Source: Cellulomonas hominis (GTDB taxonomy: Bacteria > Actinomycetota > Actinomycetes > Actinomycetales > Cellulomonadaceae). From it: DNA of 64,000 nt. A program made the position numbers and the translations under genes. The notes beneath the pieces were generated by a model that was given only the letters and a program-made list of their open reading frames with translations, was not told the origin of the DNA and did not search any database. Where the stretch lies: NCBI RefSeq assembly GCF_901521055.1, contig NZ_CABEGA010000029.1, positions 1-64,000 of the forward strand. Reading direction: 5' to 3'. Shown piece after piece: positions 40,050 through 47,970 of this stretch (positions are counted from its first letter, which is position 1; each line of letters opens with the position of its first letter).

Positions 40050-43000
40050 ATGACGACGACCTCCGTGCCCGCGACAGCCTCGTCCGCGAGCCCCGCAGCA
40101 CCCGTCCCGATCCCGTACGCCGAGCCGCCCGCCGCCGTCCTGGCGCAGCTGCGCTCGGACCCGGGCGGCCTGGGCGCCGCCGAGGCGGAGCGCCGGCTCG
40201 CCGACGTGGGCCGGAACCGGCTCCCCGCGCCGTCCCGGCCCAGCGCCCTGCGCCGGCTCCTCGGGCACTTCGACGACATCCTCATCTACATCCTGCTGGC
40301 GTCGGCGGTGCTCAAGGCGATCCTCGGCGACTGGATCGACTTCACGGTGATCCTCGCGGTGGCCGTGATCAACGCCGCCGTCGGGTTCCTCCAGGAGGGC
40401 CAGGCCGAGCGGGCGCTCGACGGCATCCGCACGATGCTCTCGCTGGACGCCCAGGTGCGGCGCGACGGCGAGTGGCGGGTCGTCGACGCCGAGACCCTGG
40501 TGCCGGGAGACGTCGTCCGGGTCCGCTCGGGCGACCGCGTCCCCGCGGACCTCCGCCTGATCGAGGCGACGAACCTCCAGGTCGAGGAGGCCGCGCTCAC
40601 CGGCGAGTCGGTCCCCGCCGCGAAGCACGTCGACGCGGTCGGCGCCGACGCCGGACTGGGCGACCGGGCCTCGATGCTCTACTCGAGCACCATCGTCGCG
40701 GTGGGCACCGGCGTGGGCGTCGTCACCGCGACCGGCTCCGGCACGGAGATCGGGCGCATCCAGTCGATGATCGCCGAGGTCGACCACCTCGACACCCCGC
40801 TGTCCCGGCAGCTCGCGAAGTTCGGCCGGACGCTGTCGCTCGGCATCCTCGCGATGGCGGCGTTCATGCTGGTGGTCGGCCGGGTCATCCACCAGTGGGA
40901 CATCCCCGAGCTCGTGTCGGCCGCCATCGGCTTCGCGGTGGCGGCGGTCCCCGAGGGCCTGCCCGCCCTGGTGACGGTCACGCTCGCGCTCGGGGTGCAG
41001 CAGATGGCCCGCCGCAACGCGATCACGCGCAAGCTCACCGCGGTCGAGGCTCTGGGCTCGGTGACGACGATCTGCTCCGACAAGACCGGCACGCTCACCA
41101 AGAACGAGATGACCACGCGGACCGTCGTGACCGCCGCCGCGACGTACCAGGTGGAGGGCCTCGGCTACGCGCCGGAGGGGCGCGTCACGCTCGACGGCGC
41201 CGCCGCCCCGCTCGACGCGCACCCCGATCTCAGGGCCCTGGTCACGGCCGCGGCCGCCGCGAACGACGCGCGCATCGTGCAGGAGAACGGGCAGTGGAAG
41301 GTCGTCGGGCAGCCCACCGAGGGAGCGATCGCCACCCTCGCGCTCAAGGCCGGCGCGGACGTCTCCGGGGTGGAGCGGCTGGCCGAGCTGCCGTTCGAGT
41401 CGGCGACGAAGTTCATGGCGACGCTCGACCGCGTGCCCGGCGCCGGTACCCGGGTCCGCACGGTCGGCGCGCCCGACCGGCTCCTGGACCGGTGCAGCCA
41501 CCAGCGGGGAGCCGACGGCCGTGCCGAGCCCCTGGACCGCGCCCACTGGGAGGGCGTCATCGACCGGCTCGGCGGCCAGGGCCTGCGCACGCTCGCGGCG
41601 GCGGAGCGGCCCGCCGCCGACGACGCCACGTCGCTCGACGCGGCCGACGTCGAGGAGGGCCTCGTCTTCCTGGGCGTGTTCGGCATCGTCGACCCCCCGC
41701 GGCCGGAAGCCGTGCAGGCCATCGCGGACTGCCACCGCGCGGGCATCCGCGTCAAGATGATCACCGGAGACCACGCCGGCACCGCGACCGCCATCGCCCG
41801 CGAGCTCGGGATCGTCGCGGCGGACGGCGACGTCCACGCCCTCACCGGGGCGGACCTGGAGGCGATGACCCAGGAGCAGCTGCGCACGCGCGTCCGGGAC
41901 GTCGACGTCTACGCGCGCACCAGCCCCGAGCACAAGATCCGCATCGTCCGCGCCCTCCAGTCGCACGGCGAGGTCGTGGCGATGACCGGGGACGGCGTGA
42001 ACGACGCACCCGCGCTCACCCGCGCGGACGTCGGCATCGCGATGGGCATCAAGGGCACCGAGGCGACCAAGGAGTCCGCCGAGATCGTCCTGGCCGACGA
42101 CAACTTCGCGACCATCGAGCGGGCCGTCGAGGAGGGGCGGCGGATCTACGACAACATCCGCAAGTCCGTCGTGTTCCTGCTGCCCACCAACGGGGCCCAG
42201 TCCCTGGTCATCCTGGTGGCGGTGCTGTTCGGCCTCACGCTGCCGCTGGCGCCCGTCCAGATCCTGTGGGTCAACCTCGTCACCGCCGTGACGCTCTCGC
42301 TCGCGCTGGCGTACGAGCCGGCCGAGCCCGGCGTCATGTCGCGTCCGCCGCGCAAGCCGGGCGGATCGGTGCTCTCGCGCGAGTCGCTCGAGCACGTCGT
42401 CGTCGCGTCGTTGCTCATCGGCGGCGCGACCCTCGGGGTCTTCGCGATCGAGCGCGCCCGCGGTACCGCCACGGACGTCGCCCAGACGACGGCGGTCACG
42501 ATGCTCGCCCTCGGGCAGCTCGCCTACCTGTTCAACTGCCGGTTCCTCGGCGAGTCGAGCCTCACGCCGCGGGTCCTCCGCGGGAACCGCGTCGTGTGGA
42601 TCGCGTCCGGCGCGCTCATCGTGCTGCAGCTGGTGTTCACGTACGTCCCGTTCATGAACTCCTGGTTCGACTCCGCACCCATCGGGCCGCGCGAGTGGGC
42701 GCTCACGCTCGGGTTCGCGATCATCGTCTTCCTGCTGATCGAGGCGATGAAGGCCGTCACCCGCGCGCAGGACGCCCGCCGGCACGCGCGCTTGGCTGCC
42801 GCTGCCGGCCCCGGCGCAGTGACCGTCGAGGAGGCCGGTGCGCGGCTGCCGGAGCTGCTCCGGTCCGTGGAGCACGGCGACGAGGTCACGCTGACCCGCG
42901 ACGGGAAGCCGGTCGCGCGGATCGTCCCGGCGCGGGCCGCCCCGGCACGGCGCACCAGCGGCCGGCGGGGTCCGGCGGTCGCGCCCTCCGCGACCACCAC

Positions 43001-43346
43001 GGCGATCCAGCTCACGCCGCCGCCGGCGGACGAGACCCCGGACGCCGGCCCGGCGGACCGTCTGCCGGCCGACGCCCCCGCGGGCGCGGCGGCCGTGCCC
43101 GGCTCCTCCGCTGCCGGCGCCTCCGCGCTCGACGCTGCTCCCGCGGAGCCGGAGGTCCCCGGTGCGCGGGCGGCGGGCGGTCGACCGACGGGGTCGACCG
43201 ACGCGACGATCGTGCTGGAGCCCGTCGACCCGGACGGCACCCCCGCGCCCGGCACGCCGACCCGGCGACGCGAGCGCCGGAGCGCGACGGCGGCGACGGA
43301 GCAGCTCGGCCAGGTGGACCCGGAGGGACCGACGACGGCCGGCTGA
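40050..43346 (+). CDS. P2-type cation-transporting ATPase with C-terminal Phd-like segment
   Basis: A 1098-residue P-type ATPase. It has a Cation_ATPase_N domain (about 25-95), TGES (about 183), the M4 site PEGLP (301-305, calcium/manganese type), the phosphorylation site DKTGTLT (Asp344) and the hinge TGDGVNDAP, with about ten membrane helices ending near 905. The nucleotide-domain KGAP motif reads VGAP (Val472). After the last helix, residues about 924-963 (AGARLPELLRSVEHGDEVTL then TRDGKPVARIVP) look like a Phd/YefM antitoxin domain. A Pro/Ala-rich disordered tail follows to the end. Usual length is about 900, so nearly 200 residues are extra. Confidence 0.9.
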   Translation: MTTTSVPATASSASPAAPVPIPYAEPPAAVLAQLRSDPGGLGAAEAERRLADVGRNRLPAPSRPSALRRLLGHFDDILIYILLASAVLKAILGDWIDFTVILAVAVINAAVGFLQEGQAERALDGIRTMLSLDAQVRRDGEWRVVDAETLVPGDVVRVRSGDRVPADLRLIEATNLQVEEAALTGESVPAAKHVDAVGADAGLGDRASMLYSSTIVAVGTGVGVVTATGSGTEIGRIQSMIAEVDHLDTPLSRQLAKFGRTLSLGILAMAAFMLVVGRVIHQWDIPELVSAAIGFAVAAVPEGLPALVTVTLALGVQQMARRNAITRKLTAVEALGSVTTICSDKTGTLTKNEMTTRTVVTAAATYQVEGLGYAPEGRVTLDGAAAPLDAHPDLRALVTAAAAANDARIVQENGQWKVVGQPTEGAIATLALKAGADVSGVERLAELPFESATKFMATLDRVPGAGTRVRTVGAPDRLLDRCSHQRGADGRAEPLDRAHWEGVIDRLGGQGLRTLAAAERPAADDATSLDAADVEEGLVFLGVFGIVDPPRPEAVQAIADCHRAGIRVKMITGDHAGTATAIARELGIVAADGDVHALTGADLEAMTQEQLRTRVRDVDVYARTSPEHKIRIVRALQSHGEVVAMTGDGVNDAPALTRADVGIAMGIKGTEATKESAEIVLADDNFATIERAVEEGRRIYDNIRKSVVFLLPTNGAQSLVILVAVLFGLTLPLAPVQILWVNLVTAVTLSLALAYEPAEPGVMSRPPRKPGGSVLSRESLEHVVVASLLIGGATLGVFAIERARGTATDVAQTTAVTMLALGQLAYLFNCRFLGESSLTPRVLRGNRVVWIASGALIVLQLVFTYVPFMNSWFDSAPIGPREWALTLGFAIIVFLLIEAMKAVTRAQDARRHARLAAAAGPGAVTVEEAGARLPELLRSVEHGDEVTLTRDGKPVARIVPARAAPARRTSGRRGPAVAPSATTTAIQLTPPPADETPDAGPADRLPADAPAGAAAVPGSSAAGASALDAAPAEPEVPGARAAGGRPTGSTDATIVLEPVDPDGTPAPGTPTRRRERRSATAATEQLGQVDPEGPTTAG

Positions 43347-46264: not shown

Positions 46265-47380
46265 TCAGAGGTCCACCGGGTCGACCAGGAACCCGGCCAT
46301 GTCGGCGATCTCCCCGCCGACGTCGGCGTGCACCTCCCGGGCAACCCCACGGACCACCCGGGCGGCGCGGCCGCGGGCGACGCGGTGCGGCAGCGACGGC
46401 CGCTCGGACTCCAGCTGCTCGACGTCCGGGGGCTCCCACCGCACGCGGTACGCGACGACCTCGCCCTGGGCCCAGTCCAGCGCGGACAGCACGACCGGGA
46501 CGTCCAGCTCCGCGGCGACCTCGACGACGACGATCCCGTCGACCCCGAGGTCGATCTGGACGCCGAACGCCTCGGACGGCGGCGGGTTCGCGCGCATGTG
46601 CGCGTCGTAGGCGTCGGCCTCCGCGTGCAGCCGGCGCCGCTCCTCGGGGTCGGCGACGCCCGCACCGGCCCGGTCCCGGGCGGCGAGGGCAGCGCCCGCC
46701 TCCTCGGGCGTGGCGCGCACGGGGACGTCCACGTCCGTCGCGACACCGGGTCCGTCGAGCCGGGCCCGGGGCGCGACGCGCCGCACCGCGGTGAGGACGA
46801 CCCTCGGCTCCACCCAGCGGTCGGTGAGCACGGCGAGGTCGAGCGCCGCGTCCATCTCGGGCTCCAGGACGACCCCGGACTCGACCCGCAGGGCGCCGCC
46901 CAGGCGGCGGGCGGCGGCGACGAGCCACTGGACCACCCGCTGCTCCTCACGGACCGGCCCCGCGGTGCCGAACGCGCGGCGCAGGCCGTCGCGGTCACCG
47001 CCGAACGCCGGGCCCTCCGCGCGCTCGCGCGGGCAGTCCACCACCCAGGCGGTCCGGCTGCCGGTCGGCAGACCCCAGCGCGCGACCTGCGCCGGTTCCA
47101 GCGCGTACGGGCCGGTGAGCGTCGAGAGCCGGCCGAGCCGCAGCACTCCCGGCGTCGCGAGCGGCACCACGCCCCGGGCGGCGCCGGAGGCACGCCGGCC
47201 GGACGGCACCCGTGGGGGGCGCTCCCAGCGCGCGGACGGGAACCGGCTGGCGGCGAGCACCTCGACCTCGTCCGGCGCGACGCCCTCGGGCAGCACCAGG
47301 AGGTGCCGGCCGGGCGGGGGCGTCACGGCGGCACGCGCGCCGGCCGCGACCTCCGGCAGCGGGGGGAGCAGGCTGGTCAC
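46265..47380 (-). CDS. Uncharacterised protein downstream of dcd
   Basis: A 371-residue protein with no recognised domain. It is rich in Val, Pro, Arg and Asp; the central part has AWVVDCPRERAEGPAFGGDR and WLVAAARRLGGALRVESGVV, and the end is acidic. No signal peptide or membrane helix. The GTG at 47380 lies 14 bases after the dcd stop; longer starts would lie inside dcd. Probably co-transcribed with dcd. Confidence 0.7.
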   Translation of the reverse strand: MTSLLPPLPEVAAGARAAVTPPPGRHLLVLPEGVAPDEVEVLAASRFPSARWERPPRVPSGRRASGAARGVVPLATPGVLRLGRLSTLTGPYALEPAQVARWGLPTGSRTAWVVDCPRERAEGPAFGGDRDGLRRAFGTAGPVREEQRVVQWLVAAARRLGGALRVESGVVLEPEMDAALDLAVLTDRWVEPRVVLTAVRRVAPRARLDGPGVATDVDVPVRATPEEAGAALAARDRAGAGVADPEERRRLHAEADAYDAHMRANPPPSEAFGVQIDLGVDGIVVVEVAAELDVPVVLSALDWAQGEVVAYRVRWEPPDVEQLESERPSLPHRVARGRAARVVRGVAREVHADVGGEIADMAGFLVDPVDL

Positions 47381-47394
47381 GTCCGGGACCGCCG

Positions 47395-47970
47395 TCAGAC
47401 CTGCGTGCGGTGGAAGTTCTGCCAGGACCGCGAGGCGGTCGGGCCGCGCTGACCCTGGTAGCGGGAGCCGGTCGCCCCGGAGCCGTACGGCTGCAGCGCC
47501 GGCGACGACAGCCGGAAGAAGCACATCTGCCCGATCTTCATCCCGGGCCAGAGCGTGATCGGCAGCGTCGCCACGTTCGACAGCTCGAGCGTCACGTGCC
47601 CGGTGAAGCCCGGGTCGATGAACCCCGCGGTCGAGTGGGTGAGCAGGCCCAGCCGGCCGAGGGACGACTTCCCCTCCAGGCGGGCCGCGATGTCGTCGGG
47701 CAGCGTGACCTGCTCGTACGTCGCCCCGAGCACGAACTCCCCGGGGTGCAGCACGAACGGCTCGTCCGGGTCGACCTCGACCAGCCGCGTGAGGTCGGGC
47801 TGGTCCTGCGACGGGTCGATGACCGGGTACTTGTGGTTGTCGAACAGCCGGAAGAACCGGTCCAGGCGCACGTCGATGCTCGACGGCTGCAGCATCGCGG
47901 GGTCGTAGGGGTCGAGGACCACCCGTCCGGAGTCGAGCTCGGCGGTGATGTCGCGGTCGGAGAGCAGCAC
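47395..47970 (-). CDS. dcd: dCTP deaminase, probably bifunctional deaminase/dUTPase
   Basis: A 191-residue homotrimeric Dcd: [40 protein letters not shown], and the active-site segment [20 protein letters not shown]. The [11 protein letters not shown] form is that of the actinobacterial bifunctional enzyme, which turns dCTP into dUMP. Makes precursors for dTMP synthesis. GTG start at 47970. Confidence 0.95.

Follow-up and report, generated by a model that had tools for sequence, protein, structure and literature searches.

We report here that a P-type ATPase of Cellulomonas hominis carries a genuine Phd/YefM-type antitoxin segment fused to its C terminus, confirming what a first-pass annotation had proposed for this protein. 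The gene lies in a stretch of 64,000 nucleotides, referred to as the window, in which all coordinates are given. We consider it reasonably probable that the antitoxin-derived tail has been domesticated and, probably by self-associating, would regulate the pump.

Results

Pump core and antitoxin-type segment

The pump is a protein of 1098 amino acids encoded by the ORF at 40050-43346 (+), which begins with ATG and runs uninterrupted from the pump to the stop. The Pfam domains E1-E2_ATPase, Cation_ATPase_N, Cation_ATPase_C, and Hydrolase are all matched in the core, which also contains the DKTGT and GDGVND motifs, as in P2-type P-type ATPases (Table 1). Its nearest solved structures are Listeria LMCA1 (6zhf, 1.2e-152) and SPCA1/ATP2C1 (8iwp). 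These P2A-type ATPases resemble the pump core, with alignments running from residue 22/23 to 904/908, whereas the Phd tail is a feature of the C. hominis pump. The tail after the core comprises 193 residues.

Table 1. Features of the pump gene in the window
Feature	Position	Strand	Evidence
P2-type (IIA-like) P-type ATPase core, residues 1-905	40050..42764	+	Pfam domains, TIGR01522, 6zhf match
Juxtamembrane linker; its length and sequence vary within the clade	42765..42815	+	dN/dS 0.99 (all pairs) and 0.64 (L147-L152)
Phd/YefM N-terminal-type segment, residues 923-962	42816..42935	+	TIGR01552, PF02604, AF2 and Foldseek, dN/dS
Basic motif ARRTSGR	42945..42965	+	A, R, R, and last R invariant in 13/13; dN/dS 0.11
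Motif TTAIQLTPP	42996..43022	+	TTAIQL and PP invariant in 13/13; dN/dS 0.10
Motif DATIVLEPV	43200..43226	+	T[IV]VL in 13/13; dN/dS 0.29 (all pairs) and 0.07 (L147-L152)
Basic cluster RRRERRS close to the C terminus	43263..43283	+	Alignment; moderate conservation

TIGR01552 recognized the segment with 33.5 bits (2e-8), above its cut-off of 20.8. The Pfam search suggested in the first-pass annotation was borne out in part: PF02604 matched with its N-terminal half, but its score on the whole protein, 24.6 bits (2.2e-5), lies below the cut-off of 29.8; the 60-aa segment alone scored 30.1 bits. A six-frame scan of the pump's own genome gave 28.1 bits for the segment, below the cut-off. Both profiles were covered in their N-terminal half only (positions 4-43 of 74 for Pfam and 1-40 of 53 for TIGR), so that the C-terminal toxin-neutralizing region of Phd/YefM proteins is absent. 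Against an HMM of 15 antitoxin segments from the family, the fused tails (n = 13) scored 23.0-59.1 bits, and the best of 2600 shuffled tails reached 11.7 bits. This shuffle test is only partly independent because the 15 segments had been found via a model of the fused segments, and the curated libraries therefore provide the independent test: scanned singly at E 0.01, 12 of the 13 tails matched TIGR01552, and 12 matched PF02604. L157 and L158 were the weakest scorers (23 bits). Given these low scores and the one unmatched tail per library, the Phd fold may be drifting in some tails.

By prediction, the segment adopts the Phd fold. An AlphaFold2 (AF2) model computed from the single sequence had a mean pLDDT of 71.4, with 76-85 in the Phd part (blocks of ten), for which the order strand-helix-helix-strand-strand was predicted. 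Comparison of predicted structures, also proposed earlier, led to the same family, although at weak E-values (best 0.05, none <=0.001): the top 24 Foldseek matches were all Phd/YefM-type antitoxins or complexes thereof, with the N-domain of VapB46 first (TMt 0.85; rmsd 0.7 across 39 columns), and a truncated Phd was matched as well.

Selection and conserved motifs in the tail

The Phd segment and three motifs are constrained, and the linker and spacer are nearly neutral. In pooled pairwise comparisons over the 13 fused loci (Nei-Gojobori, JC), dN/dS of the Phd part was 0.42 over all pairs and 0.17 in the six-member subclade L147-L152; the corresponding values for TM7-10 were 0.23 and 0.18. Over all 13, the spacer gave 0.83 and the C-terminal end 0.61. 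Differences by codon position in the Phd part were 0.19, 0.14, and 0.38, consistent with coding constraint in the annotated frame. ARRTSGR and TTAIQLTPP were conserved more strongly than the Phd part, each motif value being pooled over pairs from only 7-9 codons. The end of the protein had been described as a Pro/Ala-rich tail; such a tail is present, but it also holds these motifs.

In its own genome, the pump tail was the sole match to the TTAIQL codon pattern, which was found in 16 of the 81 genomes of the genus; 13 of these are the fused pumps, and the three other places (L220, L223, L231) proved on reading to be unrelated frames. The stretch after the Phd half is probably disordered. Several relatives have RRRSRR in place of RRRERRS, and the contig of L151 ends before this cluster. 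In two close relatives (L154, L156), the T[IV]VL motif occurs twice in the tail (DDTVVLAPV).

Distribution and origin of the fusion

The pump is present at 63 places in 62 of the 81 genomes of the genus (E 1e-40), with two pumps, one fused and one unfused, in G096. A check of whether orthologous ATPases share the fusion had been proposed, and a reading of all 63 C termini found the Phd segment and tail in 13 and not in the other 50. The first 53 pumps extracted include all 13 with the whole tail, its parts in the same order, and 40 without it; the remaining 10 also lack it. Counted from ten residues before the alignment end (query residue 886-905), the stretch past the core spans 181-267 residues in the 13 fused pumps, with that of L151 (185 residues) running off the contig, and 13-39 residues in the 40 unfused ones.

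The fused pumps form a single clade in a quick tree (SH-aLRT 96). The tree also gives the one link that identifies the genus as Cellulomonas: L184 (G053), from within it, lies at zero distance from L037, a locus of Cellulomonas phragmiteti. Beside it are placed the unfused pumps L167-L169, at an unresolved fork with the long-branched L045. In L167-L169, a GH15 (glycosyl hydrolase family 15) gene is still found downstream of the pump, and no Phd reading frame was seen by eye in six-frame translations between the pump and the next gene. With one clade and such neighbors, the simplest history is a single gain of the fusion at the base of one branch within the genus.

A search of 396 genomes of the order identified the pump in 59 (E 1e-30), of which 47 are outside the genus, and all 48 pumps from these 47 genomes end soon past the last helix. 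Their C termini were read directly since a match may be interrupted at the linker, as in the fused pump of G076, in which it stopped at query residue 223. Like these 48, the 50 unfused pumps of the genus end a short way beyond the last helix. None of 58 C termini (the 48 from outside and the 10 from within the genus) scored above 3.3 bits with two models of the Phd segment. At 80 named pump loci, the C terminus was in the recognized frame in 77, with no comparable extension in any; the motif filter did not catch L054 and L056, and L067 is cut by a contig end. Matches beyond residue 960 at L050, L092, and L104 lie on the far side of the stop codon that closes the pump frame. At the family level (221 genomes), the segment lies within a pump only in the 13 among the matches listed. 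A widespread fusion was not seen at the depth searched, which covered the named loci and the order and family genomes.

None of 18 other loci at which long frames matched a 60-aa query, among the matches listed, was in a pump. On reading (12 had a tblastn match; L164, L210, L213, L214, L215, and L216 were read in place), they were standalone antitoxins within long GC-rich frames or chance frames of ABC-type, SbcC-type, or antisense nature. Plasmids contained no match to the segment plus TTAIQL stretch at E 1e-3, and in our searches of the open-access literature none of the titles listed described such an antitoxin-pump fusion.

Assembly and gene neighborhood

A frameshift or assembly error joining two genes, named earlier as the way in which the fusion could prove spurious, is ruled out: the frame is open, and 12 further genomes have the identical architecture. 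At L153 (G042:C1:1928000-1935500), in a single-contig genome, the pump lies in two frames, with a break between residues 759 and 761, around 3803; it was seen as two tblastn pieces, is located upstream of the tail, and is either a sequencing error or real.

Upstream of the pump is an MFS gene. Downstream are a convergent GH15 gene, then an SDR gene, and then a gene for a 419-aa protein, in agreement with the earlier statement that no toxin gene follows. No adjoining toxin gene was recognized, and the three downstream proteins had no PADLOC model match. The 419-residue protein, at 46265-47524 (-), had no Pfam match at 1e-5. Of the other 12 fused loci (L147-L158), 10 have GH15 downstream of the pump, L151 ending too early and L153 differing; in 9 of these 10, a gene with 25-30% identity to the SDR query is situated between the pump and GH15. 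At L153, the next gene recognized after the pump is the counterpart of the gene at 46265-47524.

Discussion

It had been suggested that the segment would equip a membrane pump with a DNA-binding or toxin-neutralizing module. Our results lend no support to this: judged from sequence, either activity is unlikely, given that the toxin half is missing, no toxin gene adjoins, and an arginine important in related antitoxins is lost. The column aligned with Arg10 of P1 Phd holds K or R in 17 of 19 standalone antitoxin segments and T in 2; 12 of the fused proteins have A there, and the remaining one has G. Rows were obtained for 27 of 34 given loci, and from these, two fused loci, five same-place duplicates, and L005, in which the column is uncovered, were left out of the count of standalone segments. 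Four of the seven loci without a row (L001, L002, L209, L213) align weakly and have K or R, and L006, L214, and L216 were not counted in this column. The second basic column, of Arg31 type, is kept in 12 of the 13 fused proteins and is Q in L157, a degree of retention unexpected under full loss of DNA binding. We take R10 and R31 of YefM to fall in these two columns, P1 Phd being the one protein aligned.

The Phd part might nevertheless bind DNA as a dimer, so that the pump would be tethered to a promoter or repress it as a membrane-bound regulator. The predicted N-terminal Phd-type fold and the retained Arg31-type residue are compatible with this, but the 0 of 13 fused proteins with K or R at the Arg10-type position, compared with 17 of 19 standalone relatives, speak against it. 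R10 and R31 of YefM are each described as essential for binding DNA (PMC4803016), and Lys8, Arg10, and Asn14 of Enterococcus faecalis Phd are placed close to DNA (PMC13034048). We regard DNA binding by the pump tail as very unlikely; operator binding has, by its sequence, probably been lost. Still less credible is that the segment neutralizes, or is controlled by, a toxin encoded elsewhere. Its antitoxin homology is what would favor such a role, but the profile match extends no further than position 43 of 74, whereas residues 52-79 of E. faecalis Phd contact the toxin (PMC13034048), and no toxin gene was recognized next to the pump. With DNA and toxin roles weakened, and the Phd N-terminal domain being a dimerization domain (PMC4803016), protein-protein association is the role that remains.

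We therefore favor the following sequence of events for a domesticated, regulatory tail. A P2-type cation pump would have acquired a cytosolic C-terminal tail consisting of the N-terminal, dimerizing half of a Phd/YefM antitoxin and a motif-bearing stretch. The antitoxin half would have shed its toxin-binding part and probably also operator binding. It would then serve as a protein-protein module through which pump monomers self-associate or dock onto a partner, and ARRTSGR, TTAIQLTPP, and T[IV]VL could be docking or phosphorylation sites that set the activity or location of the pump.

The tail could alternatively be a neutral appendage, that is, a fragment captured from an antitoxin, extended by low-complexity sequence and devoid of function. 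The near-neutral evolution of linker and spacer and the absence of the tail from 50 of the 63 pumps in the genus fit with this, but the dN/dS of the Phd part (0.42, and 0.17 in the subclade) and of the motifs (0.10-0.29), together with residues invariant over 13 genomes, make it improbable. Another possibility is that the motifs are the working part, providing kinase/FHA-type docking of a disordered tail, with the Phd fold a mere structural spacer. The two motifs conserved beyond the Phd part point in this direction, as do six FHA and six protein-kinase matches in the pump's own genome. Such numbers are, however, ordinary in bacteria of this kind. The Phd part is under constraint too, and the phosphosites are putative; we thus find it doubtful that the motifs act alone. 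The motifs with conserved Thr residues might be phosphorylated there, an idea for which we presume a kinase/FHA motif preference. Combining both elements, we would only tentatively suggest a genuine regulatory domain acquired from outside, in which the antitoxin half pairs two pump monomers while Ser/Thr kinases switch conserved threonines of the tail and FHA proteins recognize them.

Compared with Phd/YefM antitoxins (PF02604, TIGR01552; for example, P1 Phd and VapB46), the pump tail shares the N-terminal fold by profile and predicted structure. Unlike these antitoxins, it has no C-terminal toxin-binding half and no recognized adjoining toxin gene, has lost the Arg10-type residue, and is fused to a membrane pump. 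An antitoxin fold has thus moved out of the toxin-antitoxin setting, most simply in one event, and selection has maintained it as part of a membrane pump. Eukaryotic P-type ATPases provide a precedent for regulatory domains at a terminus: their cytosolic extensions include the C-terminal R domains of P3A H+-ATPases in plants and fungi and the calmodulin-binding tails of P2B pumps; these belong to a different pump class, the likeness is one of architecture, and regulation of the C. hominis pump is what we infer. Plant P3A pumps are possibly dimers and bind 14-3-3 proteins at the phosphorylated C terminus, and the plant and fungal C-terminal R domains are thought to have evolved independently (PMC10654040). 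If it exists, a kinase/FHA switch would be the bacterial equivalent of the way in which kinases and 14-3-3 proteins control plant H+-ATPases. Should the tail regulate the pump, the acquisition of regulatory domains by P-type ATPases could be addressed in a simple bacterial system. Unfused relatives from the same genus allow comparison.

Assignment of the pump to the P2A Ca2+-ATPases (PMR1/SERCA equivalog) is not supported by two curated profiles, TIGR01522 (613.1 bits; cut-off 798.3) and TIGR01116 (589.5 bits; cut-off 703.4), neither of which reached its cut-off, nor by the M6 position, where the Asp is absent. The ion of this broad bacterial pump subfamily may not be Ca2+. M5-M6 of the pump correspond to 42165-42320, with Ala at the position of the M6 Asp of LMCA1, which belongs to the Ca2+ site. 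The motif filter caught M6 in 98 of 131 pump rows and missed it in 33; in those 98, this position is A, S, or T and never D.
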